From contig JANQMF010000072.1 in NCBI GenBank assembly GCA_028280225.1, positions 1 to 48,118 on the forward strand: 48,118 nucleotides of DNA, written 5' to 3'. Position 1 is the stretch's first letter, and every line of letters starts with the position of its first letter. The notes below the pieces were generated by a model. That model was not told where the DNA came from, did no database searches, and saw only the letters and a program-made list of their open reading frames with translations. The translations under genes were made by a program, and so were the position numbers. Below are positions 1,615 to 17,597 of this stretch, piece by piece. This DNA comes from Pseudomonadales bacterium (GTDB lineage Bacteria; Pseudomonadota; Gammaproteobacteria; Pseudomonadales; Azotimanducaceae).

Positions 1615-1795
1615 AGAGTTAATAACACCACCGCTTAGGCGCCACGCCCATCTATTCCAACATAGCAGGTGAGGCTTCGTATCGAGGCGGGCAGTTTAGC
1701 AAAGCCGCTTGAGTCGGTCGAACTCCGTGCATAGAGAAAGCACGGCGGCTTGGTTGGTGTTACCATCGACCCAAGCGAAAGTGAGACGGGCCACG

Positions 1796-2536
1796 ATGAC
1801 CAATCAACAGACTCGCCAAGATACCAGCCAAGAAACTCGCTGGGATATCCTGTCCTGGGACTCAAATTTTTTCGGTGTGTGTGTTGCAAGAATTTACGCA
1901 ACAAATTTAGACCAAGATAAACTGGCCGAACTCATTCATGGACTTAAAAGAAGGTCCGTCAGACTAGTCTATTGGAATCCGTCTTCCATTCCTAACTACG
2001 ATCTCGCTGATTTTGGCGGGGTGCTGGTTGACGAGAAAACTGTTTATTGCATTAAACCCAGGCAAACTGAAAAAACCCTGACATCATTCCGCAACAGTTT
2101 CCCCATCAAGCTATGTTCCCCGGACGTTGAACGCCTAGGTATCGCTTGTGGCAAGTTTTCTCGTTTTAACATCGACCCTAACATTACAGACGAGCAATTC
2201 AAAAATTTATATCGAACATGGATCATACGCTCAGTCTCAAAAGAACTTGCCTTGGAGGTTCTGGGTATAAACGATAAAAAGCAGTTGGCCGGCCTTATTA
2301 CACTAGGCAGGAAAGGGACCCGCGGAGATATAGGGTTAGTTGGAGTCGGCGAGGACTTTCGTGGAAATCGTTATGGGGAGCACCTGGTGAACGCTGCAAT
2401 CCATTGGTTTAGCGACCAAGGATTTGAGGAAGTTCAAGTAGTCACTCAAGGCGCAAACAACCCTGCATGCCATCTGTATGAAAAGTGCGGCTTTTTCAAA
2501 GAATCCAAAACACCATATTACCATTTCTGGCTGTAA
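1796..2536 (+). CDS. wecD: WecD-like GNAT N-acetyltransferase
   Basis: A 246-residue protein from the ATG at 1796; a longer in-frame opening from 1709 looks like non-conserved leader. The N-terminal WDSNFFG (21-27) is typical of WecD/RffC-type enzymes. The C-terminal GNAT domain shows acetyl-CoA-binding motif A around 182-198 (VGEDFRGNRYGEHLV) and the closing YEKCGFF (228-234). WecD acetylates dTDP-Fuc4N to dTDP-Fuc4NAc, so the divergently placed WecE-type aminotransferase provides the likely substrate. In enterobacteria wecD and wecE are adjacent on one strand; here they diverge from a 181-base spacer. The symbol rests on domain type plus context, and another amino-sugar acetyltransferase is possible. 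Confidence 0.72.
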   Translation: MTNQQTRQDTSQETRWDILSWDSNFFGVCVARIYATNLDQDKLAELIHGLKRRSVRLVYWNPSSIPNYDLADFGGVLVDEKTVYCIKPRQTEKTLTSFRNSFPIKLCSPDVERLGIACGKFSRFNIDPNITDEQFKNLYRTWIIRSVSKELALEVLGINDKKQLAGLITLGRKGTRGDIGLVGVGEDFRGNRYGEHLVNAAIHWFSDQGFEEVQVVTQGANNPACHLYEKCGFFKESKTPYYHFWL

Positions 2537-2593: not shown

Positions 2594-3301
2594 ATGCTGA
2601 GTTTTATTACGAAGGCGCAGTATTGGAAATTGGTCGACGAAGGTATAGAAGACCTTCTACGGAAAGGTGTTTTCGACTGGCACCTTAAATCCGTCCAAGA
2701 TACTGTGGCGTTTTCGCTCGTCAGAGACAAACGGAATCAGAATATTGCGGAAATAGGCGGTGGTGACAGCAGAATACTACCTGTCCTCGCCAAAGAGAAT
2801 ATTTGTACAAATATTGAAAAATTTGAAGGTCAAGACGGTGGTCCAAAGGGAGAAATTTCCTTTTCCAATGTTGCTAATGTACATGCCTTTGTTGGCGAAT
2901 ACTCTGACTTACTAGCGGAAAATTCATTCGATACCATTTTTTCAGTCTCCGTGGTCGAACACATACCCAACGATCAGATGCCGGCATTTATAGACGACTG
3001 CCATCGCATTCTTAGGCCGGGTGGGACCATGATTCACCTTGTCGACATGTATCTAATGCCGGATCGCTCACACTACAACGATTCTAGAATGCAGATTTAC
3101 GGATCCTCGTTTAATCACCTTTTTAGGCCAATGGAGCCCGTGACTTTCCCGGAAGATCGTAGCTGGCCCTTCATGGAGTGCTACTGTTCAAATCCTGACA
3201 ACACCATGTACGGCTGGAATAGCGTAAATCCTCAACTTCGCCAGGTGCGGGAGAACAGCCAGTCCGTAGCCATTGCCTGGGCTGGGATCGCACAAAAGTA
3301 G
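2594..3301 (+). CDS. Class I SAM-dependent methyltransferase, probably glycan-related
   Basis: A 235-residue protein with a Methyltransf_11-like Rossmann core. The SAM-binding motif I is IAEIGGGD (51-58), the post-motif II block is FSVSVVEHIP (116-125) and motif III is RILRPGG (138-144). The ATG at 2594 is preceded by AGGA at a good distance. It follows the WecD-like gene by 57 bases on the same strand and ends 9 bases before the convergent end of a membrane-protein gene. The acceptor cannot be read from the sequence. The setting suggests O- or N-methylation of a sugar in the same glycan. Confidence 0.75.
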   Translation: MLSFITKAQYWKLVDEGIEDLLRKGVFDWHLKSVQDTVAFSLVRDKRNQNIAEIGGGDSRILPVLAKENICTNIEKFEGQDGGPKGEISFSNVANVHAFVGEYSDLLAENSFDTIFSVSVVEHIPNDQMPAFIDDCHRILRPGGTMIHLVDMYLMPDRSHYNDSRMQIYGSSFNHLFRPMEPVTFPEDRSWPFMECYCSNPDNTMYGWNSVNPQLRQVRENSQSVAIAWAGIAQK

Positions 3302-3310
3302 ACTCGTCAT

Positions 3311-5023
3311 CTAGTGTGTGTATTTAAACTTCATCCTGTATAGCCTGGGTAACGCTTCAACTTCCTCTAATGCCAAACGCATTCCGTAACGTTCTTTGTA
3401 GAATTGCTTTAAGATATCGAATTGCCTTTTTCGCGGAATTTTTCGTTTTACCACATAGGCATGCGATCTGGATGCTAACGTTAAGAAAAAGTCAGTTTCA
3501 TCGCCTAACATCCTAACCATCTCGCGCTGGACGGGTGATTGGTTCATAAAACTACCTCCTATAAAACCAGCCACGTTTATTGGCGAATCCAGAGGCGATA
3601 AGGGCAGGTAGTGTTCATACGGAAAGGTAGACCCCATCGCATATATGACAGCGCCTTCCGGTAAATTAATTGCCCAAGTCTGAATGTCCTGGTGAAACGC
3701 GGCCGCCTGTGAAAGCCTCCACTGCACAAATTGCTGTGTGTGCCAAAGATTAAGTGTAAAGAACCCGAGAACAGTTAAACCCGCAACGGACCATACGTAC
3801 CTGGCTTTCGAATCAGATACCTTTGCACCCACAGCATATATCAACAACAGGCACCAAAACATGCCAAAGCCCAAGGTTAACCAAAGCCGCAACGGTGCTC
3901 TATACAGTACCCCACACAGGTACCCTAGAATTACGATCAAGGTTACCACCAAAATAATTGCCGCAATTCTGGACTGGGCATCTCGAACAAGAAGCGCAAT
4001 TACCAGCACTCCAATAACGATCAGCATGGCTGAAAATCTGGGTAAGAATCTTATCAATCCAGATTCCACTTGCCGAAACATTTCATCAACACCAAGGAGA
4101 GGTCTACCCCGAAATGCATCTTCTATGACACTCAGCTTTTCCACCGAAAAGTGAAACGGATCGACATATTGCCATGACAGAATCATGTTGAAATCAGTGG
4201 CTGACATTCCGGCAGCATCGAATTTCGCTGCACTCTCGGCTGTAAAACTTACCCCGCGATAATCGATATACTCCGATTTGAGTTCGTTTATTTTACTCCA
4301 ATTTTGCCACTCCGCAGAGCGTTCATAGTAACTGGTGTGACTAACCGGTATCAGGATTAATCCAATCACCAACAAAAAGCCCGCCACCATCAACCTTCGA
4401 TCAGCTAGTTTCTGCCGATGGCAGACCATCACCCAAACAGCAAAAGGCAGTATCAATGCGGTGATCATCAAAAAAGACTCAAACCGCAAGAGTGCACTTG
4501 CAATTAATAAGCCAAGCGTCACTAATACGCCTCGGTGGGAAATACGCTCACGCTCAGTTAACAAGCTCAGAAAAAAGACAAACCCAGCAACGGCACATAC
4601 CCCAGATACCACCGTAAACTGCAGGTGCCAAAACAACGGAAATGCCACTACCCAGCAACCTATTGTCAAGGAGCAGGCAAAAGGCTTGTCCCGGCGTTTA
4701 ATGAGCACGCTGTAACAAAGCACACACAGACTAAGTACAATCAACGCGCACAAGATCAGTCCATACCAGGCGACCTGTGGCGAGCTCTGATAAAGCATGC
4801 TTATGAAGTCGCCCAAAAGAAAATGAACAAACAGAAGATCACCTGAGGGGTTGGCTGCAACGAGAAAACCGGCCGCAATCATCGACATGACGATATCGTC
4901 ATTTGTTCCCCAAATCGGCTCCCCACATATCAACCAATAGAGAAGAACTGCAGAGCCTGCGACTAGTCCGGACAGAGATAAAGTTCCCCGCTGATCATGC
5001 GGCAAACGTGGGACTTGGCACAT
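3311..5023 (-). CDS. Polytopic membrane protein, possible GT-C-like glycosyltransferase
   Basis: About 570 residues with roughly eleven hydrophobic segments and a soluble C-terminal tail of about 130 residues. After the first membrane segment comes GTNDDIVMSM. An acidic pair in the first periplasmic loop is the usual place for the catalytic carboxylates of GT-C enzymes, which use polyprenyl-phosphate sugars on the periplasmic side. That function is inference from topology only, since no family signature was recognised. A TTG lies just before the ATG at 5023, and I prefer the ATG. It starts 11 bases after the stop of the dehydrogenase gene and is the last gene of the eleven-gene minus-strand unit, ending tail to tail with the methyltransferase gene. 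Confidence 0.5.
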   Translation of the reverse strand: MCQVPRLPHDQRGTLSLSGLVAGSAVLLYWLICGEPIWGTNDDIVMSMIAAGFLVAANPSGDLLFVHFLLGDFISMLYQSSPQVAWYGLILCALIVLSLCVLCYSVLIKRRDKPFACSLTIGCWVVAFPLFWHLQFTVVSGVCAVAGFVFFLSLLTERERISHRGVLVTLGLLIASALLRFESFLMITALILPFAVWVMVCHRQKLADRRLMVAGFLLVIGLILIPVSHTSYYERSAEWQNWSKINELKSEYIDYRGVSFTAESAAKFDAAGMSATDFNMILSWQYVDPFHFSVEKLSVIEDAFRGRPLLGVDEMFRQVESGLIRFLPRFSAMLIVIGVLVIALLVRDAQSRIAAIILVVTLIVILGYLCGVLYRAPLRLWLTLGFGMFWCLLLIYAVGAKVSDSKARYVWSVAGLTVLGFFTLNLWHTQQFVQWRLSQAAAFHQDIQTWAINLPEGAVIYAMGSTFPYEHYLPLSPLDSPINVAGFIGGSFMNQSPVQREMVRMLGDETDFFLTLASRSHAYVVKRKIPRKRQFDILKQFYKERYGMRLALEEVEALPRLYRMKFKYTH

Positions 5024-5034
5024 CAACCAGACCG

Positions 5035-5958
5035 TTAGTTAACGAGCATCTCAGCTATCAAACGTACCGCTTTTATATTGGTTGCCTGCACAGCTTCTCG
5101 TGTATTGGAAGCATTGTGAGCACCCAGAATAACGTTCTGCATCGTCGTTAACGGAGATTCTTCCGGTAGCGGTTCTACCTCAAAAACATCTAAAGCCGCA
5201 CCACCAACCCGTCCCGACAACAAAGCTTGTTCGAGTGCTCCTTGGTCAATCAACGGTCCGCGAGATACATTTACCACATAGCAACCGGGCTTTGCTAAAT
5301 CTATCGTATCCTCATTCAACATATGCCAGTTATCTGCCACTAGGGCACAACTGAATAGCAGAAAATCACACTCGCTCAGACGATCAGGCCAGGTACACAT
5401 TTCCGCGACTTCGTGAGATTCGACAACCGGATCGTAACCTAGCGTTTTAACCCCAGCCACATTGAGCCTCTTGATGATTTGGCGACCGATATTGCCCAAC
5501 CCAACCACACCGGCCGTCTTCCCAAACAAGCTCACTCCCTGAGGTTTGATCCAGTCACCTTGCCGAACCGCACGATCAACCAGCCCAATCTTTCTTGTCA
5601 GTCCTACCAGGTAAGCCATAGCCAGATCAGCTACCTCATGGGAAAACATTCCCGGCGTGTTGGCAAACCGTATCCCCAAATCGCCAACCGCTTCACCGTC
5701 TATGTTATCCACGCCAATACCCCACTTAACGATGGCCCGCAGTTTTCCCTCACTTGCTCTGGTCAACACTTTGCGATTTGCGACATCGTCACCCGCGATC
5801 CATCCGTCGAATTGTGGCAGCGTTTCTAATAGTTGTTCTTCAGAAAGCGTCTGCAGTACATCCCCACATACCAGGTCGAGGCCGGTCTGACTGGCGAGTT
5901 CCGAAATTTGAGCTTTTTCCCCCAACATCGGCGGACAGGATATAAACACCTTTTTCAT
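5035..5958 (-). CDS. D-isomer-specific 2-hydroxyacid dehydrogenase
   Basis: A 307-residue NAD-dependent dehydrogenase of the SerA/GyaR family. It has the dinucleotide motif GLGNIG (153-158) and the Arg-Glu-His triad: Arg233 in NVSRG, Glu262 in DVFEVEP and His281 in GAHNAS. The ATG at 5958 shares one base with the stop of the cytidylyltransferase gene (TGATG), so a longer start is unlikely. It lacks the C-terminal ACT domain of long SerA proteins. Its position between a CMP-sugar-type activating enzyme and a membrane protein suggests that it makes or trims an acidic precursor used by this locus. The substrate is unknown, and nothing here points to serine biosynthesis. Confidence 0.82.
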   Translation of the reverse strand: MKKVFISCPPMLGEKAQISELASQTGLDLVCGDVLQTLSEEQLLETLPQFDGWIAGDDVANRKVLTRASEGKLRAIVKWGIGVDNIDGEAVGDLGIRFANTPGMFSHEVADLAMAYLVGLTRKIGLVDRAVRQGDWIKPQGVSLFGKTAGVVGLGNIGRQIIKRLNVAGVKTLGYDPVVESHEVAEMCTWPDRLSECDFLLFSCALVADNWHMLNEDTIDLAKPGCYVVNVSRGPLIDQGALEQALLSGRVGGAALDVFEVEPLPEESPLTTMQNVILGAHNASNTREAVQATNIKAVRLIAEMLVN

Positions 5959-6641
5959 CAGTCTTTTCTCATTGCGCCAGCTAAACTCTCCGCATGAATC
6001 CAATCTTCCGGCTCATCAATGTCTATCGATTCAAGTTTAGGGGTTTCAAATAGCAGCGGGGACAAACCAATCCGGGCGTTCGTTTTGGCAAAGCTCTCTT
6101 TGGTAAACAGATACAAACACGAATTCTCTTCGTACCATGGCTCCAAGTCCTGAGTCCGAAGCAGATTCGCAGGATCGTGATTGATTGGTGATCCGTCTTC
6201 CCTGTAGAACCTCGTTTGGAATCTATTCACCGCAAATAACGAATCATTTTCATCAGATGCTCGAAGTGCGCGGATGGCATCGGTAATCGTTAACGTACTA
6301 ATAAAGGGATTTGTAACGTGAGTCATTAAGTATAACTGCGCATCTACTGCCAGAATGTCGTCTTCAATGATCTTGTTCATGCTGACAAAATCACCTACAA
6401 GTTCAGGCCTTCTTTGTCTGAGAACAACTTTTTTAAACTCGGAAGAATGCATATCCAACCCATTGGTTCTTAGTAAGTCAGTCGCATCCGTGTTTATTAC
6501 AACAACATCTATCTCCTGAGCGGCAATCAGCGAATCCAGCATCCACCGGAAAAGCGGCTTATGTCCCAGTTGTTTGAAATTTTTGCCGGGAACACGCTCA
6601 CTATTTGCCTTCATCGGCAACAGAGCAGCAACTTTGGTCAT
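5958..6641 (-). CDS. Acylneuraminate-type cytidylyltransferase
   Basis: A 227-residue CTP_transf_3 family nucleotidyltransferase. The N-terminal LPMKANSERVPGKN (8-21) matches the CTP-binding loop of NeuA/PseF/KdsB-like enzymes. These activate a 2-keto acid sugar such as sialic, pseudaminic or legionaminic acid as the CMP-sugar. I take the ATG at 6641, which overlaps the glycosyltransferase stop by one base (TGATG); one codon upstream is a TTG. No nonulosonate synthase (NeuB/PseI type), epimerase or aminotransferase for such a sugar is in the window. Either the acid is made elsewhere, or this enzyme activates something else, possibly linked to the adjacent 2-hydroxyacid dehydrogenase. Confidence 0.8.
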   Translation of the reverse strand: MTKVAALLPMKANSERVPGKNFKQLGHKPLFRWMLDSLIAAQEIDVVVINTDATDLLRTNGLDMHSSEFKKVVLRQRRPELVGDFVSMNKIIEDDILAVDAQLYLMTHVTNPFISTLTITDAIRALRASDENDSLFAVNRFQTRFYREDGSPINHDPANLLRTQDLEPWYEENSCLYLFTKESFAKTNARIGLSPLLFETPKLESIDIDEPEDWIHAESLAGAMRKD

Positions 6642-7537
6642 CAACCCACCCTTTGTGTTGGATAAAAATACCGGCGTTTAGTGGCCTCACTAAGCTGCCT
6701 GGATGCCCGCGAGCCTTTGTAACTGCCCCAATATTGACAACACCTGAATGCCAAAATACCAGCAAATTCCGACAGAAAAACACCAAGATCAAAAGCAACC
6801 CGAGAGTCATGTACAACACTGGACACAATACACCTGACCAGGTCTCTGCGTGACATGTGCAACGCTGGGTCAATTTCTCTCAATGCCAGCGCTTCCCTTT
6901 CATACCGCCATACCACCTGTTGCCAAGACTCATCATGGATGTGGAATACCGTCGCATCTTCAACAAACGAAGTACGCTCACCCCTAGCCAACAACTGTTT
7001 AGCTAGATGCATATCCTCTAAGCCGGTGATTTCCTCATTAAACTTAAGTGTTGTCCAAGTACTAGCCAACAAAGCCGCATTGGCATTATTCACAAAATAG
7101 TCGGGTTGGGGAGTGCGCTTTGTTGGATGAAAATATTTGTCGAATACTCGGTGTTCACTGAACTTTGTTGTATCACGGCCCATCTGGCCGCCAAATACAT
7201 ATGACGCTTGCCCCTTCTTAAGCGGGGCAGTCAGATTCATCAGCCAATTGTCATCACTTGGAACACAGTGTCCACTGACAAATACAAGATAATCACCCTG
7301 TGCATGAGCACACCCTATATTCAGCGATCGCCCAAAGGTAAATGTCTCTTTTTCGATATGCACAATGCGGCAATTGTGCTGCTCCGCAATTTTGAGCGTA
7401 CTATCAGTAGAACCTGAATCGACCAGCACCACTTCGACGGAGTCATTCTCCAATTGCTGGCGGAATACTGCACTTAGGAGCTCATCAAGATAACGTTCTT
7501 CGTTGAAGGTCCTGATGATCACTGAAATATTGCTCAT
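6641..7537 (-). CDS. Family 2 glycosyltransferase
   Basis: A 298-residue GT-A fold transferase. It has ISVIIRTFNEERYL at the N-terminus, the nucleotide-binding VDSGSTDST (39-47), and a GDYLVFVSGHCVP block where GT2 enzymes normally show a DxD. Here the metal-binding pair is replaced by GHC, a variant seen in some rhamnosyltransferase-like members. The acceptor-site acidic motif is probably ITGLEDMHLAKQL. A weak hydrophobic segment near the C-terminus may dock it to the membrane. The ATG at 7537 overlaps the stop of the large fusion gene by one base (TGATG). It probably adds one sugar of the polymer exported by the ABC transporter; donor and linkage are unknown. Confidence 0.85.
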   Translation of the reverse strand: MSNISVIIRTFNEERYLDELLSAVFRQQLENDSVEVVLVDSGSTDSTLKIAEQHNCRIVHIEKETFTFGRSLNIGCAHAQGDYLVFVSGHCVPSDDNWLMNLTAPLKKGQASYVFGGQMGRDTTKFSEHRVFDKYFHPTKRTPQPDYFVNNANAALLASTWTTLKFNEEITGLEDMHLAKQLLARGERTSFVEDATVFHIHDESWQQVVWRYEREALALREIDPALHMSRRDLVRCIVSSVVHDSRVAFDLGVFLSEFAGILAFRCCQYWGSYKGSRASRQLSEATKRRYFYPTQRVG

Positions 7538-10500
7538 CAAGATTTCCGAACAATAATGCTATGCGCATCCTCGTATAGCACCTGGCTCTGAATCCTCTCA
7601 AATAGTGCCATTCCAGTTTTTGAAATCCAGCCTCCTTCGCCCGTGACCACCGGCTCAACAACTGCCGCTATTCCATCCTTTGCCAGGATTTTCGAATAGT
7701 CATTCATCAACCTTTGCGCCATAGACCCATCGGTTGCGTTTACAGTGATCATATGAAATTTAGACTTTCTCGTTTGCGCCAGCACGTCCTGGTCAAACGC
7801 TGAAGAAAAAGTTGCACTTAACTTTCGCTTGTCCATGCCGACCCGTTGGAGATTTTGTTTTACAATGGATTCGGCGGGGGTAAATGGATTGTTACGCCGG
7901 TATTCACTAACCGTATTCAATAGCGGGTCGACTAGCGCTGTGCGTAAACTCTTGTATCTGTGTCGCAGGCTGTCCCAAGCGTAGGCTGTAAAAATGCCGC
8001 TTCGACAACCGATTTCCAAAACGGACAGATGAGAACTTTCAAAGCTCAATATGCACAGACTGCGAGCAACAAGCGTACATGCGTTACTGGGAACCTCTCC
8101 AATGCAAAAATCCTCGACCTTCGCAAATCGGCTCGCCAACCGCTGCAGATCTGCAGAATCTACATCAATTGCAAGTCTACGGGCCAGTTGCGTCAATATG
8201 CCTATTTCGTTGTCATCAAGTGTACGCTTGAATTGGGGTATGTATAGTCCATCTACTTTATCCGCCAGCTTACTATACTTGTCTTCAATATCCTGGACAT
8301 TCTCCAGTGTTTTTTCATGCAACCCTTGGCTCTTCACCTGCCATGTTGTTACGGTGTTGTGCAAATCATCTGCGGCCATTTTTGACTCAACGCGCATTGT
8401 CCTGATTTGCGTCTCAACTTCCGAGCCTTCAACGCGCTCGAACAATGTATGGCATTGGTTCTGTAGATGATTTATTTCCCGCTGCAACGCACTCAGTGTT
8501 TTGGAGGATAGTCCGTCATCAACCAACTCCCCTAAACGCCGCTGGCTTTCCTGTAGCTGACGGATATCCGATAGCACTTCATTGTGGTGGGACATCATCT
8601 GCTGAGTTTGCTCGGCCCCTTTTTCGACCTGTCTGACCAACCGTTTATTAGATTTTTCAAATCTTGAAATCGTCCCCCTGAGTTTTTCGTTTTCAGCTAA
8701 CGATTTTTCCAGCCTGTCATGCGTCCGCGCTAGCTGTTCCTCTCCGCTCCTAAGAGCTTCGTCCATGCGTACCAGAAGCGTGGTCTGATCCGTCACACGC
8801 CGCTGCAGTTTATTCAACGTATCGGCATACCGACTGGAGCGGAAAACCCCTTTTTTAACCTCAAATGCCAGGTCTAACAATGCTTCTTCGAGATTATCAT
8901 TCACTTCTACTTCTTCAAGCCAGGTGGTATTCGCGACTAGCGTTGATGAGCGAACAACTGGAATAATCAGCTGTGGGGCATTCTGCCTAGTGCTATTAGC
9001 AACTTCCTGGCTCGAAGCTTGGATCTCAAAATTGTCTGCTTGAGAGATGTCTGCAAGAAGCTCAACGTCTTCTTGTTGAACCAAATCCTGTAATACAACT
9101 TGCACATGAAAGCGGCTTTCACCGAAAACCTCATACATAACCCTGACCGTTTCAATATTGCCGAATCTTTGCGCTAAACTAATATCTAGTCGGCTTAACT
9201 CCAATTGTGTCATGAGTTGTTGCAAACTCTTGGCAAATTGCCCTGTGTCCTTGGACAAAATAGCAAGATCACCTGGGGAGCCTCGAGGCGTAACCAATGT
9301 CACCTCTTTCTCATCATAGCCATGGAATTCTTTAGCCTCTGCCATGTTCTCTTGCTTTAACAAGGGCTCGATGGCAACCCTAGCGCCATCAGACTCAAAC
9401 CGCGCACATATATGTTCTCGCGACTTGATCGCCGGAATATAAGAAGGCGTGAGGGCATAAAAGCGCTTACCTAGTCTCTCTCCGACGGAAAAGTACTGTT
9501 CAACCTTGTCACAATGGCGCAGGTAGTAGTCATCATAGTCAACGGTGAAGAACGTCGGGTGGACCTGCTGAATATTGTCCATCTGACTTACAAATTGGGT
9601 TTTTTCGTTGTGTTTCCAAAAATAGTTATTCTGATCCACCGGCCTTCCGTCACAGCCAAGCAAATAGATTTCATTCGCTAATGAAGAACCAATCGGCAAC
9701 ATCAAAAACGTAAGAATATTGTCAGTCGTGTGCAGTGCATACTTATCCGAAAGTTGAAGATTAATGTCAATTTTCAGATCAAAGGGAACGGCTATTGTCA
9801 CATCAGCCAACTCGGGCTGCCAATAGACAAACAAATTGTAATACTTGATCGGTATCAGGTTAACAAACCCGTACTCGGCCTGGGTCTGAGCTAGGCGTTT
9901 CCTGAACTCGTGGGCATACACAGAGCAGCCGAAGTGAAATATGGGATCCCCGAAAATCTGTATGTCCGGATTAATCTCACGGATCAGCTCCTCGTCGTTA
10001 ATAACACTGTTGCAAATGATGTTGATACCGGAATCAAACCGATAGTTTTTATACCGACGGACTTCCGGACCCGAACAAAAAAGAAAGGCACGATCAACAT
10101 GTTCGAACTTCTTTTCTAACAACTTGAATTTAATGTGAGATTCTTCAGTTACCTCTTCGTCGTTAGCAAAATATCGATGGCTAATGTCGATATAGCGCGA
10201 ACCTTCGACCCGACTCTTGTGATCAACATCAAATATCGAGATTCCTGCCTTACGTAAACGCTGTTCGGCACCTTCACCCAAGTTTTCAAGTACTTGCAAC
10301 CCATCCCAGCATATCAATACGTCGCAATTTAAAAGGTCTCCCATAGTAGGAGTGGTATTGGCAACCCGGATCCAATCGGGTACATCAGCCGAAAATTGAT
10401 CAACAATCTCAGGTGTGTAGATGTCGCTAAGAAGGCAGCTAACGTCACAGGCCACAGGCATGATAATCTGTTCAGGAGAAAGGGGTGCTAAGTACCACGC

Positions 10501-10581
10501 AGCCCGTGCAAGTTGTTGTTCAAAAACTGCCGAATCTTCGAATTCGGGAAAATATAGAATTCGGGGCGAGACTTTGCTCAC
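7537..10581 (-). CDS. 1014-residue fusion: transferase-like domain, long coiled coil, SAM methyltransferase domain
   Basis: Three regions are visible. Residues about 1-400 look like a Rossmann-type transferase of the DUF115/MptE/GT42-like group: AFLFCSGPEV (165-174) followed by ICNSV, then LLGCDGRP (307-314) and FWKHN. Residues about 580-780 are heptad-rich coiled coil. Residues about 850-1014 form a methyltransferase-like domain with motif I LEIGCRSG (855-862) and a C-terminal beta-hairpin. The GTG start at 10581 overlaps the upstream stop by four bases (GTGA). In ABC-transporter O-antigen systems the WbdD protein uses a methyltransferase plus coiled coil to terminate chains and set their length. 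This protein has the same ingredients in a different order, so a chain-terminator/ruler role is a testable inference, not a homology call. I do not recognise the complete architecture. Confidence 0.7.
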   Translation of the reverse strand: MSKVSPRILYFPEFEDSAVFEQQLARAAWYLAPLSPEQIIMPVACDVSCLLSDIYTPEIVDQFSADVPDWIRVANTTPTMGDLLNCDVLICWDGLQVLENLGEGAEQRLRKAGISIFDVDHKSRVEGSRYIDISHRYFANDEEVTEESHIKFKLLEKKFEHVDRAFLFCSGPEVRRYKNYRFDSGINIICNSVINDEELIREINPDIQIFGDPIFHFGCSVYAHEFRKRLAQTQAEYGFVNLIPIKYYNLFVYWQPELADVTIAVPFDLKIDINLQLSDKYALHTTDNILTFLMLPIGSSLANEIYLLGCDGRPVDQNNYFWKHNEKTQFVSQMDNIQQVHPTFFTVDYDDYYLRHCDKVEQYFSVGERLGKRFYALTPSYIPAIKSREHICARFESDGARVAIEPLLKQENMAEAKEFHGYDEKEVTLVTPRGSPGDLAILSKDTGQFAKSLQQLMTQLELSRLDISLAQRFGNIETVRVMYEVFGESRFHVQVVLQDLVQQEDVELLADISQADNFEIQASSQEVANSTRQNAPQLIIPVVRSSTLVANTTWLEEVEVNDNLEEALLDLAFEVKKGVFRSSRYADTLNKLQRRVTDQTTLLVRMDEALRSGEEQLARTHDRLEKSLAENEKLRGTISRFEKSNKRLVRQVEKGAEQTQQMMSHHNEVLSDIRQLQESQRRLGELVDDGLSSKTLSALQREINHLQNQCHTLFERVEGSEVETQIRTMRVESKMAADDLHNTVTTWQVKSQGLHEKTLENVQDIEDKYSKLADKVDGLYIPQFKRTLDDNEIGILTQLARRLAIDVDSADLQRLASRFAKVEDFCIGEVPSNACTLVARSLCILSFESSHLSVLEIGCRSGIFTAYAWDSLRHRYKSLRTALVDPLLNTVSEYRRNNPFTPAESIVKQNLQRVGMDKRKLSATFSSAFDQDVLAQTRKSKFHMITVNATDGSMAQRLMNDYSKILAKDGIAAVVEPVVTGEGGWISKTGMALFERIQSQVLYEDAHSIIVRKS

Positions 10582-13061
10582 TGATTTGAATCATCAAATT
10601 TTGCGCTTGATATCATCTCTACAATCTCAGGGAGCTTACGTTTGATATCAAGGTTCTGTTTGCGGATCTCCGCGAGACTTTTTTCAATATCTTGCTGGTT
10701 TATCCGATTGTTCAAATCCGCCTCTAACTTCCCCACCCTTTTTCTAAGGTAATTAACATCACCCTCTAGCGGCCCTCCGCTTCCCGCCTCAAAGCGCGCT
10801 CTTTCTAACAGGTACGCAAGTGTGTGAACAAGTGCTATCCAACTAACACCTATGGCTGCTAACGGAACCCATGTGGGCTGAATCAGATTCGCCAACGTAA
10901 TTAGAACCATGGGTGGCGCAATAACCAGACCAAGCAAAATACCACATATTGCTCCTGTTGTAGATGAGAGAAACGAGGAAAATATTCGAAAATGATTCCT
11001 AACTGGGCCCATCGTAGATCCTGTGTGTTGTCTTTTAGTTTTTGTCGGCCCGTTTGCTTTAGCAACCCCTGCGCCATTTGCGGTCACCGTCTCCGCTCCG
11101 TTAGCCCTGCTGGATACGGCTGATGATTGGGTTGCTTGTGTTACTGAACGGGAAATCGAACTTTTGGTTTTCTTGGTCGGCGCAACCGACATCTCGTTCT
11201 CAAAAAGCCGGTTCAATTCGGCTATGGAAATTGGTTGTTTGAAAGCAAGAAAATTCCCCCAGGCGGTTTCGGATATGTCCGAAGCGGGATAGTTGCTTAA
11301 CCTGCGCCACTGATGACGAATGCCGTAGCGGACAATAGGATGCCATTCGCTTACAAATACAGTATAGCCTTGTTCAATCAGGAATTGCGCAAGATCATGG
11401 AGGTTGTAGCCGATTTTGGTCGTTTTAGCATCCTCGAATTCACATTCAACTACCAACGGTCCCCGCCTACTCCAACGAAAACCTTTCAGCACATTAAGGT
11501 CGAAGCCTTCTGTATCAATCTTGAGAAAGTCGACGTCGGTAAGTCCCTTGTCTTCCAGATATTCGTCAAGCCTAATAGTTTCCACCACAGCCACCTCCTT
11601 GTGACCTTCATGAAAAGGTATAAGGCTGGAGATACCCGTACTTTGTTCACTGGCATAAAAGCTCAGCTTTTGACCGCTTTGATCTCCCACGGCAAAAGAA
11701 TTTAGAACAAGAGATTCCTCGCCACCAAATCGTTCCTGAATATAGGATCTATTCGCTGGGTCTGGCTCAAAAGCATGTACCGTCCAACCATCGTCCAAGA
11801 AAGGTTTAAACGCAGCCCCATGATGTGCCCCCACATCAACCATAACCCCCGTTAGCTGAGGCATATAATTTCTAAAATAACTGTGGACAACCTTCGTTTC
11901 GTCTACAGATACGTCATCTCCACGCGCGTAAGAAGTGGACGTCATAACAGAGTTAGCCGCTTGCACAAGAATACTGCGGAGTTTCCCACGGATTAGCGTA
12001 TTATTGAAATGTTCAAAAGTATGTTGTTGAGCCCAACAACCAACTTTTTGTGCATCTTCACGGTTATTAACAATTCCACCAATTGTATCCGCCAATTGTC
12101 CAATGTCCCTTTTTGTAACAGGGAAACCTACCTCATTTTTTACGATGTGGTTGATAGTCGGAATCTCTAGCGGACCATACGCCAAGACCGGCGAGCCCGA
12201 AGCAAGGCATTCTGGTGTCTTGTTGGCAAACGATAACTTGGTATAAGCGAAAGAATGTTCGTCAAAATTGTAGGCAAGAACCAAGCCGTCTGCACCTGCG
12301 AGCAGCTTTGGGTAGTCTTCGTGCTTCACAAGCTTATGAACGGAGATTGCTGGACTGGACGCTGCGATCCTTTGCGCAGCCTCTTGAAACCAGGCCATGG
12401 TATAGATTTCAAAACGCAAATCAAACCCAGATGCGGCCAATTCGGCCACTGCGGACCCCACATCTGCAATACTTTGGTATTGCATATCATCGGCAAGCGC
12501 ACCGCTATAACGCAGGCAAAAAGTACCTGATCTGGGAGAAAGCCCAACTTGCTTCCAGACATGCCGATCTACCCCATTGGCAACGGTAGCGAAAGGACTG
12601 TTGTACCGTCGAGAATATTCCTCAGCCATTTCTTGGCAGATTGCAATATTCGTATGTGCTTTGGCGATAAAGCCAGCCAACATTTCAATGAGCTCGGGAC
12701 CCGGGTCCTGATGACCCACCCGCGCCGGCCAATCATCCATAACGTGATTGACTAGTGGCACATTAAAATGATCAACAATACGCTGCGTAATTCGGGAATA
12801 CTCCAGGTGATTGTCTGCCGGGCGAATATAAATTACTTCAGGCGCAAACTTCTCAATGTCCTGGAAGATCTTGCGGCTACTGTTGTTTGCAGCATCTATC
12901 CGTAATACTTTACTAACCGGATGCAAACCCCAATAAACTTGCATAATCTGTTGCTTGGGCCACCCACGAAACAGGCTATCGATAAGCTGGCCGGTTGCAT
13001 TCAGACTACCCAGTCCCGAATACGACAACACCAACACTTTGGGGAAGGTGGGATCAATCAT
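10578..13061 (-). CDS. 827-residue fusion: GT4-like glycosyltransferase, FkbM methyltransferase, membrane hairpin, coiled coil
   Basis: Residues 1-365 are a GT-B glycosyltransferase: glycine-rich YSGLGSL near the start, then RYSGAL (184-189) and the C-terminal nucleotide-site region around KTPECLASGSPVLAYGP (281-297). Residues about 405-608 are an FkbM-type methyltransferase: VDVGAHHG (408-415), HAFEPDP (429-435), FLKIDTEGFD (512-521). A Ser/Ala/Asn/Gly-rich linker (630-680) leads to two membrane helices (about 699-725 and 731-752) and a C-terminal coiled coil (about 765-815). The protein is therefore probably held on the cytoplasmic face of the inner membrane by a hairpin. The ATG at 13061 overlaps the upstream gene by 8 bases. 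It likely adds a sugar and O-methylates it or the chain. Substrates are unknown. Confidence 0.82.
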   Translation of the reverse strand: MIDPTFPKVLVLSYSGLGSLNATGQLIDSLFRGWPKQQIMQVYWGLHPVSKVLRIDAANNSSRKIFQDIEKFAPEVIYIRPADNHLEYSRITQRIVDHFNVPLVNHVMDDWPARVGHQDPGPELIEMLAGFIAKAHTNIAICQEMAEEYSRRYNSPFATVANGVDRHVWKQVGLSPRSGTFCLRYSGALADDMQYQSIADVGSAVAELAASGFDLRFEIYTMAWFQEAAQRIAASSPAISVHKLVKHEDYPKLLAGADGLVLAYNFDEHSFAYTKLSFANKTPECLASGSPVLAYGPLEIPTINHIVKNEVGFPVTKRDIGQLADTIGGIVNNREDAQKVGCWAQQHTFEHFNNTLIRGKLRSILVQAANSVMTSTSYARGDDVSVDETKVVHSYFRNYMPQLTGVMVDVGAHHGAAFKPFLDDGWTVHAFEPDPANRSYIQERFGGEESLVLNSFAVGDQSGQKLSFYASEQSTGISSLIPFHEGHKEVAVVETIRLDEYLEDKGLTDVDFLKIDTEGFDLNVLKGFRWSRRGPLVVECEFEDAKTTKIGYNLHDLAQFLIEQGYTVFVSEWHPIVRYGIRHQWRRLSNYPASDISETAWGNFLAFKQPISIAELNRLFENEMSVAPTKKTKSSISRSVTQATQSSAVSSRANGAETVTANGAGVAKANGPTKTKRQHTGSTMGPVRNHFRIFSSFLSSTTGAICGILLGLVIAPPMVLITLANLIQPTWVPLAAIGVSWIALVHTLAYLLERARFEAGSGGPLEGDVNYLRKRVGKLEADLNNRINQQDIEKSLAEIRKQNLDIKRKLPEIVEMISSAKFDDSNQ

Positions 13062-14268
13062 TTGTCGATGTCCGCAGATCGTTTTCCGCCTTGGATACTT
13101 GACCAGATTGAGGATAGGAAGACCTTGAGTTAAACAGCAGGTCTAATTGACGCTCACTTTCAGCCAGTAGGTTTCGTTTATGGAGTAAAGTGATACTGGT
13201 ACCAATCGAAGTGAGTACGACCGCTGCAAAAATCGCCAGCAAGAACTTTGGCCAGTAAACGATTGCACAGCATAGCGCCAGAGCTGTCACGAAAAACAAT
13301 AGAGCCCATTTCCTCTCACCCGTCATGTTTTCAACAGAGTGCATAAAGTCAAAACCGCGCGCTGATCGCCCACCTCCACTCATCTCTGGCTTGACCTCGG
13401 ATTCGGGATCCAACCGCTTCGTGGCCCTCGCGTCCAACGCTGTCGCAAGCGGCTGTTTTTCAAAAACCTCAAGTTTACTATCCAATCCGCAATTTACTAT
13501 TTCAACCTGATGCCGGCGAAAGTCATCTTTTGCCAAAGAATAAGCAAACTCCATGCGCCTTGTATCTGCCGCCTGCCAAATTTTGCCGCGAAAATACTCT
13601 TCGGAAAAGTGATTGGGATCCCCCACCTCACATTTTAGCAAGTCACCCTCAACCGCTCGTTCAGGCTGCTGATAGTTGTGATCAAACCCCACTAAAATCA
13701 CTTTGCGATAGCCAAGACACAAGGCAAGTTGCATATTGAAATAACTGACCGAGGAGCGTGTAGAAAATCTATCCGACGGTCCTTTAGCACCTTGATAGCC
13801 GAAGTGTGTATCCAACAATAAATGCCTATTCTTGGCACCGATCCAATAAGACAAATAGAACGGCAGAAAGAGCCATCCCCCAAAGCGATCAAAGGATTCT
13901 TGGTCCTGACTCACCACCCATGGGTTTACGACAGATAGATAAGTCATGTGATCGCGCAATCCCTCGTGCAAATGACCGTAGTTGCTGGCAAAAATATCGA
14001 CCCCTTTAAAGCTATCCCAATCTACCTGGTTAAGCGAAGGCCCGTTGCCCGCAATCACGCACACCGTACCTCGCTTCGATTTTCGAATAGTTGCCATTTG
14101 CCGTCGGGTTCGCCTGAATTCCCTATACAGCCAAGCTCTTGAAAAACCAAGCCGCTTGTCCTCCACACGCACGGCTCGATGGGTCAGGAGGTGCAAAACC
14201 GAAGGTTCGACTTGGACATATTTCGATTGGGTTAGGGAGTCAGGGAGTATTGAATTACCTTGTGTCAA
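13054..14268 (-). CDS. DUF115/MptE-like Rossmann protein with C-terminal membrane hairpin
   Basis: A 404-residue protein. VCVIAGNGPSL (69-79) followed by FASNYGHL and later VILVGFDHNY (190-199) is the two-part pattern of DUF115, MptE-like and GT42 sialyltransferase-like proteins, which bind CMP- or other nucleotide substrates. Two membrane helices follow at about 321-338 and 341-362, then a short charged tail, so it is probably tethered to the inner membrane. A TTG start at 14268 is supported by AGAGGA about 6 bases upstream. The gap to the preceding FkbM gene is 126 bases, the largest within the operon. With a cytidylyltransferase in the same operon, a CMP-sugar transferase is a reasonable guess, but enzymatic activity is not shown by the sequence. 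Confidence 0.65.
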   Translation of the reverse strand: MTQGNSILPDSLTQSKYVQVEPSVLHLLTHRAVRVEDKRLGFSRAWLYREFRRTRRQMATIRKSKRGTVCVIAGNGPSLNQVDWDSFKGVDIFASNYGHLHEGLRDHMTYLSVVNPWVVSQDQESFDRFGGWLFLPFYLSYWIGAKNRHLLLDTHFGYQGAKGPSDRFSTRSSVSYFNMQLALCLGYRKVILVGFDHNYQQPERAVEGDLLKCEVGDPNHFSEEYFRGKIWQAADTRRMEFAYSLAKDDFRRHQVEIVNCGLDSKLEVFEKQPLATALDARATKRLDPESEVKPEMSGGGRSARGFDFMHSVENMTGERKWALLFFVTALALCCAIVYWPKFLLAIFAAVVLTSIGTSITLLHKRNLLAESERQLDLLFNSRSSYPQSGQVSKAENDLRTSTND

Positions 14269-14394
14269 GAGTTTCCTCTTTTTCTAATCTGAACCAACAT
14301 CCCATAAGTGTTCGACGAGCCCCTGAGTCTCGCAGCCCGAATTATAAGGCAAGTGTACCCTATAACGAAGAGCACCCTATAAAGAGGTTGGTCA

Positions 14395-15585
14395 TCAGGC
14401 AGATGGTTTGTAAAACCAGTCGTCCCATTTAACTGATTCGAAGACATATCCAGCATCACTCAGGAGGCGTCTGATGGGTTCTCGATTAACTCCGTTGTTG
14501 TGCTCTACCGTAATGCAGTGAATTGTCCAATCACTGATGGGAAAGTTACGCAGAATTTCAAACTCACTACCTTCCGTATCCATGCTCAAATAATCGATCT
14601 CACGAGGGGCATCGTTAGATAACAAAAAGTCCTCTAGAGACGTGGTTTGCAATTGGATGATTTTCCCTTCGTCCGCATAAGCCTGACGACGAGCCGCATG
14701 TTTGTCCTTGTACATGTGATCGCGAATACCGCCATATTCTTTTGCCAGGACAAAATCTACGATCTCGCCCGAACACCCGCTGATACAAGCGCTAGAAATT
14801 GTACAACTCCGATAGTTCTTTAAAGATTCAAAGTATTGAGGATTGGGTTCTGCTAATAGCCCCCGCCATCCATATTCCTGCTCAAGTACCAGGGTGTTGC
14901 TCAGTAGTACCCCATCAGAGGCGCCAAACTCCACAAAATACCCACCCCGCTTATCCTTCAACTTTTCCAATACCCAACGATCTTGGCCCAATTGCGAATA
15001 CGACGCAGTCTTGGGTTTGCCATTAACACGCCGCAATAGAGATTGGGTACCCAATTGATTGACCAGCACGGCTTCCAGAGTCGCAATCTCACTTTCCAGC
15101 ATGCTGATGCGCCTATCCATTTTTACCGATGGCCCATGGCCTCTTAACGAAACAATATTTGCCCGCAACTGCTTACCAGCTTCTTCCAACAGCCCAAGCG
15201 AGGATAGCTCGCGGACACATCTGGTCTGAAGTTTCTCGCTCACTTTGGCTCTTTTGCACCCGGCGATCCTTAACGCTTGTTCAAATTGATGCCTGGCGGT
15301 GTCTAGATCACCTTTTAACGCAAAGATTCGACCTAATGCACTATGTGCACCGCTAGTCAGGACCCGAGCAATATCCAGCTGAGTACATCCACAATTCTTC
15401 GCTATCTGAAAGTACTTTCTAGCCCCCAAAACATCTCCCGCATAGGCAAGGCTTGCACCCTTCAAAAGCGCTCGCTCACCTGTGGTGTCCGAAATTGCCA
15501 ATTTATCGCTAAACGCGGCAAGGACATCCCACTCACCCTTTAACCAATGCTGTCCCACTGGACTATCCAGGTTAATTTTACTCAC
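14395..15585 (-). CDS. TPR-like domain fused to FkbM methyltransferase
   Basis: 396 residues. The N-terminal 145 residues are helical repeats of TPR type, for example GASLAYAGDVLGARKYFQIA and the GRIFALKGDLDTARHQFEQA pair, followed by a short coiled coil (about 155-180). The C-terminal half is a Methyltransf_21/FkbM domain: YSQLGQDRWVLEKL (196-209), FVEFGASDGVLLSNT (217-231), LLAEPNP (243-249) and YLSMDTEGSEFEIL (332-345). FkbM enzymes make O-methyl ethers on sugars or polyketides. The GTG start directly follows the TGA of the upstream coiled-coil gene, with GAGG in the right place. This is one of several methyltransferase domains in this operon, so the glycan is probably heavily methylated. 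Confidence 0.83.
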   Translation of the reverse strand: MSKINLDSPVGQHWLKGEWDVLAAFSDKLAISDTTGERALLKGASLAYAGDVLGARKYFQIAKNCGCTQLDIARVLTSGAHSALGRIFALKGDLDTARHQFEQALRIAGCKRAKVSEKLQTRCVRELSSLGLLEEAGKQLRANIVSLRGHGPSVKMDRRISMLESEIATLEAVLVNQLGTQSLLRRVNGKPKTASYSQLGQDRWVLEKLKDKRGGYFVEFGASDGVLLSNTLVLEQEYGWRGLLAEPNPQYFESLKNYRSCTISSACISGCSGEIVDFVLAKEYGGIRDHMYKDKHAARRQAYADEGKIIQLQTTSLEDFLLSNDAPREIDYLSMDTEGSEFEILRNFPISDWTIHCITVEHNNGVNREPIRRLLSDAGYVFESVKWDDWFYKPSA

Positions 15586-16089
15586 TCAGTAAACCTCTTC
15601 CCGCAACAAGAGTTCCTTCAGCAGGTCCAAGTGAATCGTCAGTCGTTCAACTTCCTTGTCCACCAGGTAACGGCGATTTTCAACCAAATCCTGATCCAAC
15701 AACTTTGCCTTAAGTTCAGAAATTTGCGCTTGGGAGTCATTCTGCAACTGAGCAAGTTCTCGTTTGAGCTCATCACATTGTGCCTCTTGATCCAATAAAC
15801 CGTCATACGCCTGCCGTATTCTGGTCGATTCCGCTTCAAGCATGGCGTATTGTCGCTTCATATCGTCAAGCTGTGTTTGGAGTTCGCCAAGCAACACGTT
15901 TTTTTGCTCAGCTTCCTCAGTTCGACTGAGCACATCGCGGTCTAGTGCTTTTGGGTCGTTTGCTTCACTTCCTTTTGCCAATCCCCTGACCGCCCGTAAT
16001 TGAGCTTCTGCCTCCCGTAGCGCAATCTTGCTTTGCACAAGCTCAGCTGCAATATCGTGTTCTTCATTCGACTTATTCGTTTGTGTCAT
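15586..16089 (-). CDS. Small coiled-coil protein of unknown function
   Basis: 167 residues, almost all charged and Leu/Gln-rich heptads from residue 12 to the C-terminus, with no signal peptide, membrane helix or enzymatic motif. It lies between the ABC ATPase gene (18 bases upstream) and the TPR-FkbM gene (immediately adjacent). Coiled coils also occur in the 827- and 1014-residue proteins of this operon. A scaffolding role that joins the transferases to the exporter is therefore a fair inference. I do not recognise a family. Confidence 0.65.
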   Translation of the reverse strand: MTQTNKSNEEHDIAAELVQSKIALREAEAQLRAVRGLAKGSEANDPKALDRDVLSRTEEAEQKNVLLGELQTQLDDMKRQYAMLEAESTRIRQAYDGLLDQEAQCDELKRELAQLQNDSQAQISELKAKLLDQDLVENRRYLVDKEVERLTIHLDLLKELLLREEVY

Positions 16090-16107
16090 AATCAGTTTGG
16101 CCCCCTG

Positions 16108-16821
16108 TCAAACCACCAGATTTTTCGACTGGTCTATAAAACTATGGTAATTATCCAGTACCGTGTACGTGTCCCCGAATTCCATTACCTTACCCTTTTC
16201 CAACCACAAGACCTTGTCACAAAGTGCATCTACCTGATATTTCGAGTGTGAAACAAAGACCACACTTTGGTTGCTGGTAACACGTTCGGTCATGGTATGC
16301 ATCGCCTTACTGCGAAACTGTTCGTCTCCAACACCCAGAACCTCGTCAATCAATAACAGCTCAGCGTCCATGGTGACTGCTACTGAGAACCCAAGGCGCG
16401 CCCGCATCCCTGCTGAATAGGTTCGCAAAGGCTCATCGATAAAGGCGCCCAATTCCGAGAAGTTGATAATATCACCCAGCTTACGAATCACTTCTTTTCT
16501 GGAATTGCCCATTAACATGCCACTAATTAGCGCGTTATCACGTCCGCTCAGATTTTGGTCAAAACCCAAAGTCAAAGACAACAAAGAAACGCTGGCACAT
16601 CGCCTGATCAGTACCCCGGAATCAGGCTGATAGATCCCTGCCAATAGACGGAGCAGTGATGATTTTCCACATCCATTACGTCCAACCACACCCAACGTCT
16701 CACCTCGGTTGAGGGTGAAAGATACATTGCTGAGGACTTGAAAGCGCTCACGCCCAAAAACACGACGCCTTTTGGCAAAGCTTAGATCTACGGCGTCGGC
16801 CTTGACAATAAGGTTCCCCAC
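16108..16821 (-). CDS. Polysaccharide ABC exporter ATPase (Wzt/KpsT-like, short form)
   Basis: A 237-residue nucleotide-binding domain with Walker A GRNGCGKS (47-54), signature YSAGM (135-139), Walker B LLLIDE (155-160) and the switch histidine in SHS (191-193). The RTYSAGMRARLGFSVA block is typical of ATPases that export O-antigen, teichoic acid or capsule. It ends soon after the core, lacking the C-terminal carbohydrate-binding domain that chain-end-specific Wzt proteins use to recognise capped O-antigen. It starts at GTG and overlaps the permease stop by one base (TAGTG). Together with the permease it moves a lipid-linked polymer across the inner membrane. Confidence 0.92.
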   Translation of the reverse strand: MGNLIVKADAVDLSFAKRRRVFGRERFQVLSNVSFTLNRGETLGVVGRNGCGKSSLLRLLAGIYQPDSGVLIRRCASVSLLSLTLGFDQNLSGRDNALISGMLMGNSRKEVIRKLGDIINFSELGAFIDEPLRTYSAGMRARLGFSVAVTMDAELLLIDEVLGVGDEQFRSKAMHTMTERVTSNQSVVFVSHSKYQVDALCDKVLWLEKGKVMEFGDTYTVLDNYHSFIDQSKNLVV

Positions 16822-17597
16822 TACTGAATGACCAAGCGAGAATAGGTGGAGTCAAACCTATTCAGCACAATAAGTATTAAACCTGTACAAGCCAAGGAAC
16901 CCAGCATAATGAAAAACAATGCCGCCCAATCCGGACTGAATCCATCAAGTAGAACCAGGCGGTAATTGTTAATCAGATTTGCCATTGGATTAAGCAGAAA
17001 CGTATCCCAGTGATGTTCGGGAATGACTACCCGATAGCTGTAAAACAGCCCTGAACCAAACATCAATAGCAATGTGCCGGTCGGCACCACAAATTTGAAG
17101 TCTGGAAAAAATGGAGTAATTGCAGCCACAAGAACCGAAATCGACATAATGAGGAGGAACTGGGCAAAAATTACCGGAATCAAGTACAACCAATGTGGAC
17201 TGGGCGAGACTCCATAAGCAACCAAAAAGAGTAAGAAAAGAACAAATACAAAGGTTTGCTTAACCGCATCCTGGAATACAACCACCATTGGGAAAAATAC
17301 TTTGGGAATGGGCATAGCACTGATTAGACCATAGCCATCCAAAATAGAGCTTGCGGCATTCGCAATCGTCTTCGAAAACCACAAGAATGGAATGGTCCCG
17401 CAAAGCAAAAAGACCACAAAGTCTTCTGTACCCCTGTCTATTAGAACTCCGAATACCAGATATAACACCAGCACGTACAGAGCTGGTTCTAAAATCCACC
17501 AGACGTACCCAAGATAAGTCCGCGCGGCTTCCGCTTTTAGGTTAAATAGAACCTTGGCGAAAAACACCTCGTAAATGAAGACTTTGCTTAACTGCAT
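16821..17597 (-). CDS. Polysaccharide ABC exporter permease (Wzm/KpsM-like)
   Basis: 258 residues with six membrane helices of the ABC2_membrane family. The N-terminal amphipathic stretch with RTYLGYVWWILEP and the later LLCGTIPFLWFSKTI and NPMANLINNYRLVLLDG blocks are typical of Wzm/TagG-type permeases. It forms the membrane half of the exporter with the ATPase encoded directly downstream. It is the first gene of the eleven-gene minus-strand unit, and the 267-base divergent spacer upstream is the likely promoter region. Family is clear. Whether the cargo is O-antigen, capsule or another polymer is not. Confidence 0.92.
   Translation of the reverse strand: MQLSKVFIYEVFFAKVLFNLKAEAARTYLGYVWWILEPALYVLVLYLVFGVLIDRGTEDFVVFLLCGTIPFLWFSKTIANAASSILDGYGLISAMPIPKVFFPMVVVFQDAVKQTFVFVLFLLFLVAYGVSPSPHWLYLIPVIFAQFLLIMSISVLVAAITPFFPDFKFVVPTGTLLLMFGSGLFYSYRVVIPEHHWDTFLLNPMANLINNYRLVLLDGFSPDWAALFFIMLGSLACTGLILIVLNRFDSTYSRLVIQ

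Follow-up and report, generated by a model that had tools for sequence, protein, structure and literature searches.

In a 48,118-nucleotide stretch of DNA from a Pseudomonadales bacterium of the Azotimanducaceae (GenBank assembly GCA_028280225.1, contig JANQMF010000072.1; this whole stretch is hereafter called the window), eleven open reading frames (ORFs) on the minus strand at 3311-17597, numbered g11 to g1 in the order of transcription (Table 1), form a glycan operon with an ATP-binding cassette (ABC) exporter. The explanation that we favor, with moderate confidence, is that this operon encodes a split giant enzyme which would make and export a methylated surface glycan, with a coil acting as a ruler in fused relatives and a cap that is changed or lost in the window. 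Domains were assigned by Pfam and NCBIfam searches of the proteins. A preliminary description of this DNA had called the eleven genes co-directional, as the ORF list bears out, and the exporter that it proposed is found by family matches in g11 (Wzm) and g10 (Wzt).

Fused relatives and module order

When g6 was searched against 293 genomes of the order, 52 held some match. Beyond the window's own genome, only one of them, G174, matched over more than one domain (40% identity, residues 2-659, E 5e-152), and the next best match reached E 4e-12. The G174 protein has 1732 residues and reads, from the N-terminus, GT2, GT42-like, GT4, FkbM, two transmembrane (TM) segments, coil and Methyltransf_24 (GT2 6-129; MptE-like, below the cut-off, 445-496; FkbM 1005-1163; TM 1280-1330; coil 1345-1419; Methyltransf_24 1566-1691), with homology to g7 and g6 in between. 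Its neighbors are Wzm, a Wzt of 441 residues, a 417-residue protein resembling the N-terminus of g5, a GT2, a cytidylyltransferase, a 2-hydroxyacid dehydrogenase and a short-chain dehydrogenase/reductase (SDR). A giant protein of the same layout, of 1691 residues, is encoded by L062, a Pseudomonadales metagenome-assembled genome (MAG), where the gene sits behind Wzm, a 410-residue Wzt and one FkbM gene; its contig also carries the g4-g3-g2 cassette, at a distance of 10-12 kb. A hydropathy scan flags one segment inside the methyltransferase of both giants, which we take as a false call.

The g7 module is also present inside both giants, and g7, g6 and g5, read in the direction of transcription, follow the N-to-C order of their modules. 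Relative to the giants, the break in the window falls within the coil, g6 ending in hairpin and coil and g5 continuing with coil and methyltransferase; the N-terminal domain of g5 precedes this second half. Because fusion and module order match in G174 and L062, the simplest reading of the sequences is that g7, g6 and g5 represent parts of one machine, either split or not yet fused, and that its halves would come together via their coils. The preliminary description had suggested one enzyme complex at the exporter; in support, the two giants unite the g7 and g6 modules with that of the g5 C-terminus in a single polypeptide, in the same order and near exporter genes, and it is probable that the enzymes act jointly, as a machine whose type is known in part.

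Other relatives carry related modules in other arrangements. L066, a Chloroflexota MAG, encodes a 1726-residue protein with a g5-N-like domain, GT2, FkbM, hairpin, coil and Methyltransf_24. G903 was found with a profile of the g5 N-terminal domain, which matched 2 of 398 genomes of the phylum, one being the window's own; its 1401-residue protein consists of GT2, an unassigned part, a membrane segment (one TM segment alone passes the threshold), coil and Methyltransf_24, and it also holds an 817-residue protein of g5-N-like domain and GT2, together with the cassette. In G464 (whose contig is also that of L065), which a search with the C-terminal portion of g6 brought up, a 903-residue protein consists of GT4, FkbM, hairpin and coil, which is the layout of g6, and no Methyltransf_24 domain is present in it; Wzm/Wzt and the cassette are on the same contig, about 8 kb off and on the opposite strand. 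The identity of g6 is 38% to the G174 segment and 32% to this G464 protein. Among the 13 genomes behind the related loci and handles, three (G174, L066 and G903) have the g5 N-terminal domain.

A core of membrane part, coil and Methyltransf_24 is present in four relatives (G174, L062, L066 and G903), with varied modules in front. It is rare in the sample drawn: a profile of the Methyltransf_24-bearing end matched 4 of 369 genomes of the class at E 1e-10 or better, and the sole frame above 300 residues was the window's own. Around this one core, G174 and L062 have related modules fused in a single chain, L066 and G903 have them reshuffled, and the window distributes them over three adjoining genes, so that the roles of coil, anchor and cap can be separated by comparing natural forms.

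That the locus is an ordinary O-antigen locus, with fusions that arose by chance rearrangement and with no physical machine, seems to us very improbable. Glycan loci often exchange modules, and the G + C content of 0.46-0.50 in the glycan half (1-24000), versus 0.51-0.58 in the conserved half (24001-48000), fits a variable region, perhaps acquired; however, chance would have to explain why the module order recurs in two giants and why the same core stands in four proteins behind different modules.

A pattern scan of 84,980 species genomes with two peptide patterns gave at least 22 loci; in 13 of them (L071-L083), which we left aside, the match is confined to the GT4 region. L057 matched just the g6 FkbM region and a DegT, and relatives of g6 on viral contigs (four loci) likewise cover the FkbM region only. 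In L066, two large adjoining proteins (L066:2-2752 and 3021-8201) each match this region, and in two Methylobacillus homologs of g6 (L063:10001-12784 and L064:9986-12760) FkbM is matched twice, with no hairpin pair or coil; the L063 and L064 stretches examined gave no Wzm/Wzt match.

Coils and membrane hairpins

The hydropathy scan places two-helix hairpins in g6 and g7 (Table 1). Of the two C-terminal hairpins that had been proposed, both are there, and that of g6 precedes the coil and so is not strictly terminal. Coil and hairpin share a chain in G174, L062 and L066; in the window the hairpins sit in g6 and g7.

Three coiled-coil proteins had likewise been proposed, and they fare unequally. 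Coil-like runs are found at 547-781 in g5, 47-165 in g9 (polar helical) and 765-810 in g6, with best heptad z values in 28-residue windows of 3.5, 2.8 and 3.1, respectively (g7 tail, 0.4). In the same scan presumed non-coil stretches gave z of 2.0-2.5 and a stretch of g8 gave 3.1, and with sparser sampling g6 reached only 1.8. A stricter 42-residue scan passes g5 (z 4.6) and also flags g7 43-87 and g8 82-123; the g6 and g9 coils fail it. From these sequence scans we regard the g5 coil as firm and those of g6 and g9 as weaker. An AlphaFold2 model of g5 560-1014 contains a single helix of 107 residues (~582-688; 10-residue mean predicted local distance difference test score, pLDDT, up to 90). 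The mean pLDDT of this model is 57.9, and it was used for the long helix alone, which would dominate any fold matches. The model of g5 1-600 is poor (mean pLDDT 36).

Comparison with known systems

In the described ABC-dependent systems the terminator is held at the far end of the coil, apart from the polymerizing modules (available text of PMC11231755), and coil rulers, methyl capping and modules distributed over one or several proteins all have published precedent in the accessible portions of PMC11231755 and PMC3482155. As far as these portions go, the K. pneumoniae O7/O12/O4 and E. coli O9a/O8 systems (WbdD, WbbB, ORF6-O7, ORF7-O4) combine an ABC exporter, GT modules in one or several proteins and a coiled-coil protein whose terminator, at the far end of the coil, is a methyltransferase (with or without a kinase) or a CMP-Kdo transferase; that of O8 WbdD is a plain methyltransferase (PMC3482155, in part). 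The window has Wzm/Wzt in the locus, GT modules and an extended coil in the candidate terminator, g5. By analogy, it fits a kind of system already known, in which glycan assembly depends on an ABC exporter, a coiled coil serves as the ruler and the modules reside in one protein or in several.

The differences concern the architecture. WbdD, WbbB and ORF6-O7 have N-terminal terminators in the available text of PMC11231755; in contrast, the polarity of G174 and L062 is reversed, with polymerase modules N-terminal and the methyltransferase C-terminal. In place of the amphipathic helix of WbdD there is a two-helix hairpin. Compared with the K. pneumoniae and E. coli polymerase-terminator systems, GT42-like and FkbM modules are present here, and the window form is split and its methyltransferase looks altered.

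The preliminary description had treated the layout as one that it did not recognize. That view does not hold in general, for the available text of PMC11231755 describes ABC-exporter-dependent glycan assembly by coiled-coil proteins that are multimodule or split. Our full-text literature searches, with subscription papers mostly outside their scope, recognized neither a described locus with the exact eleven-gene set nor the reversed, hairpin-anchored GT42/FkbM form and its natural split, and we make no claim of priority.

Group 2 capsule systems (KpsMT with KpsC/KpsS) share the short ATPase without a binding domain, and among the NCBIfam matches of g11 (KpsM and Wzm, both far below the cut-off) KpsM was best. 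They differ in that no KpsC/KpsS family match was found in the window's genome (G000), nor in G174, G464, L062 or L066. G903 does encode KpsC/KpsS, and its locus adjoins a KpsC-type capsule gene. From its gene content, the window does not resemble a capsule locus of the KpsC/KpsS type.

Proposed mechanism

In the explanation favored here, a methylated surface glycan, O-antigen- or capsule-like, would be made in the cytoplasm and exported through Wzm/Wzt. The CMP-activated sugar would be supplied by g3 and g2, the chain built by g4, g6, g7 and perhaps the N-terminal domain of g5, and its O-methylation carried out by g8 and g6. The giant enzyme would hold its N-terminal polymerase modules and hairpin at the membrane and extend into the cytoplasm a long coil that bears the methyltransferase at its distal end. 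The coil of the fused relatives would most likely be a ruler that keeps the chain-capping methyltransferase off the membrane and thereby restricts capping to long chains. For the window we predict that the halves rejoin at the exporter via the g6 and g5 coils, with g9 perhaps taking part.

In three fused relatives (G174, L062 and L066), the end that bears Methyltransf_24 is matched by the C-terminus of g5, which lies at the far end of the coil, as expected for a terminator; taken alone, its methyltransferase match is weak (E 0.013), and the Pfam matches of g5 are otherwise weak and of coil type. The EIGxxxG and DP segments are retained, as is one aligned Asp-Tyr of FDDY. For the G174 Methyltransf_24 region, phmmer against the PDB gave nothing up to E 0.01.

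Several observations weigh against this explanation. The g5 domain reads VNATDG where all four of the relatives compared read IDGDH, and their FDDY aligns in g5 just as MNDY, across a 16-residue deletion. The hydropathy scan finds no membrane anchor in g5, and the g6 coil through which it would rejoin is short and fails the stricter scan. For the N-terminal domain of g5, the profile matched nothing in the PDB up to E 10, and the match to the GT42-like profile is weak (hhalign probability 28.7%, E 6e-4). Wzt_C, the C-terminal carbohydrate-binding domain, is matched neither in g10 nor in the Wzt of G464, and G903 pairs intact Methyltransf_24 motifs with an ATPase of 223 residues. No ABC exporter match was seen within the 16 kb stretch of L066 examined.

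Because the DGDH motif is missing and FDDY is only partly matched, a capping role of the g5 domain is doubtful, and capping in the window is probably changed or lost. That g8 (TPR-FkbM, coupled to the coil-like g9) provides a substitute cap is a guess. The Wzt proteins of G174 and L062 match Wzt_C (E 1e-7 and 1e-8), together with an intact-looking fused cap; a strict link between intact cap and Wzt_C was considered and dropped, since G903 breaks it.

A scaffold without a ruler could also account for the locus. Hairpins and coils would gather the enzymes at the exporter without measuring length, the methyltransferases would decorate repeat units, and the cap would have been lost or never present. 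The altered motifs of g5, the missing Wzt_C of g10, the G464 hairpin-coil protein without Methyltransf_24 and the FkbM domains of G174, L062 and L066, placed on the membrane side of the hairpin, all agree with it. Yet in the four fused relatives the methyltransferase still looks intact and occupies the distal end of the coil, which is where published rulers place the terminator in the available text of PMC11231755, and we regard the scaffold as possible but doubtful. Of the split-enzyme explanation itself we put forward a wider version tentatively, as one that we rather doubt: a family of mega-enzymes of reversed polarity (polymerase modules, hairpin, coil ruler and capping methyltransferase), supplied with a CMP-sugar made without NeuB, of which the window would be a split form that rejoins via its coils and has lost its cap. 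If this were true, the window would be a natural test of ruler action without a terminator.

Sugar donor and the cassette

Against the PDB, the family profile of g7 (A4) hits GT42 sialyltransferases (best E 1.7e-5), and Pfam/NCBIfam give a weak MptE-like match. On its sequence g7 is GT42-like, and resembles GT42 sialyltransferases (CstII type) and MptE-like proteins in profile; it differs from them by the attached hairpin, and NeuB is not found in the genome. Because the g7 family is GT42-like and g3 is of the cytidine monophosphate (CMP)-sugar synthetase type (in NCBIfam, PseF is the best model of g3, below the cut-off), a CMP-activated sugar acid is the likely donor.

No NeuB match was found in the window's genome, which is 96.7% complete, nor in two of seven further genomes, the cassette-bearing L062 and Methylobacillus caricis (L064). 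The donor is therefore probably not an ordinary sialic, legionaminic or pseudaminic acid. Such a sialic-type donor was considered and is unlikely given the missing NeuB; against that, NeuB is present in G174, G464, G903, M. arboreus and L067, L066 and L069 match it weakly, and on a plasmid of Azospirillum lipoferum 4B the gene for a distant relative of the g5 N-terminal domain (L113:9479-10744, 25% identity) lies between a CmcI-type methyltransferase gene and genes including neuB. It is likely but not proven that the cassette product is not made by NeuB.

In 8 of 12 related genomes (G174, G464, L062, L063, L064, L067, G903 and Sulfitobacter sp. D7) g4-g3-g2 are contiguous. L066 and L069 have g3 and g2 homologs that are not contiguous with g4, and none were found within the Acuticoccus and Azospirillum stretches examined. 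These twelve were chosen by a match to g5, g6 or the G174 protein, not at random, and the tally left out L071-L083 (some with weak g3 or g2 matches), L068 and L070. Five of the twelve (G174, G464, L063, L064 and L067) have an SDR after the cassette; the window's operon has none. The comparison thus also draws attention to a CMP-sugar cassette (cytidylyltransferase, 2-hydroxyacid dehydrogenase, often SDR).

Operon organization

Table 1. Genes of the glycan operon, in the order of transcription, and adjoining candidate genes of the window.
Feature	Position	Strand	Evidence
g11, Wzm-type ABC-2 exporter permease, 258 residues	16821..17597	-	Pfam ABC2_membrane E 8e-7
g10, Wzt-type ATPase, 237 residues	16108..16821	-	ABC_tran E 4e-20
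g9, stand-alone coil-like protein, 167 residues	15586..16089	-	Pfam Rod_CreS E 1e-4, far below cut-off
g8, TPR region and FkbM methyltransferase, 396 residues	14395..15585	-	FkbM E 1e-18
g7, GT42-like (MptE-like) transferase and membrane hairpin 321-361, 404 residues	13054..14268	-	family profile against PDB
g6, GT4, FkbM, hairpin 705-752 and short coil, 827 residues	10578..13061	-	FkbM E 5e-23, GT4 E 0.016
g5, N-terminal domain (~1-390, transferase type unproven), unassigned region, long coil 547-781 and altered Methyltransf_24-like domain, 1014 residues	7537..10581	-	
g4, GT2 glycosyltransferase, first cassette gene, 299 residues	6641..7540	-	Glycos_transf_2 E 3e-26
g3, CMP-sugar synthetase-type cytidylyltransferase, 228 residues	5958..6644	-	CTP_transf_3 E 4.5e-15
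g2, D-2-hydroxyacid dehydrogenase-type enzyme, 322 residues	5035..6003	-	2-Hacid_dh_C E 3.6e-47
g1, polytopic membrane protein, ~10 TM segments, 571 residues	3311..5026	-	no family match
Class-I methyltransferase, possible accessory gene	2594..3301	+	Methyltransf_11 E 8e-9
DegT-type sugar aminotransferase, possible precursor gene for the same glycan	493..1614	-	
GNAT acetyltransferase, possible precursor gene for the same glycan	1709..2536	+	best NCBIfam WecD type, below cut-off

The expected number of catalytic domains was found, with at least three of transferase type (g4, g7 and, weakly, the GT4 of g6) and three methyltransferase domains (FkbM in g6 and g8, and the Methyltransf_24-like end of g5). 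The genes had also been said to overlap mostly by 1-8 bases. By coordinates six of the ten junctions overlap, by 1, 8, 4, 4 and 4 bases and, at g3/g2, by 46 bases with the longest g2 ORF; this last overlap shrinks to 1 base if g2 starts at the ATG at 5958, possibly its true start. The other four do not overlap (g10/g9, 18-base gap; g9/g8, 0 bases; g8/g7, 126-base gap; g2/g1, 8-base gap). The GTG start of g8 abuts the TGA stop of g9. Programmed read-through of this stop into g8 was considered, as the two genes share a frame with no bases between them, but because a GAGG-type site precedes the GTG, plain coupled translation suffices.

Relatives of g11 at 37-42% identity are found in G464, G003, G659 and G013. 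The loci of the last three (L054-L056) have Wzm in common, with Wzt in L054-L055 and no match to g5-g7.

Neighboring genes

If the DegT and WecD-like GNAT genes at 493-2536 serve the same glycan, they suggest an acylated amino-deoxy sugar. The methyltransferase at 2594..3301 has a homolog (E 8e-33) within the Methylobacillus caricis locus (L064:13686-14399).

An ORF at 19016-20950, between the pilin genes and the operon, has a Wzy_C domain and a weak TPR match at its C-terminus, and could encode an O-antigen ligase or a pilin-type transferase. The latter raises the possibility of protein or pilin glycosylation, in which this protein would move a short exported glycan onto a type IV pilin or another protein. 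MptE-like proteins also serve flagellin glycosylation (Maf), which would suit such a role, as does the position of the ORF. We nevertheless judge it unlikely: Wzm/Wzt exporters normally serve polymers, the G903 locus adjoins a capsule gene and the Wzy_C domain equally fits an ordinary O-antigen ligase.

No significant Pfam match was obtained for the ORFs at 3311-5026, 17865-19019 and 21119-22567, of which two are membrane proteins and one, of 482 residues, has no predicted TM segment. The remainder of the window (23011-48118) consists of conserved chromosomal genes, including a tRNA-Thr, two pilin-like ORFs, PilB/PilC/PilD types, CoaE, ArgJ, SecA, an M23 peptidase, LpxC, FtsZ, a Mur ligase and others, and the glycan region lies on their pilin/tRNA-Thr side.

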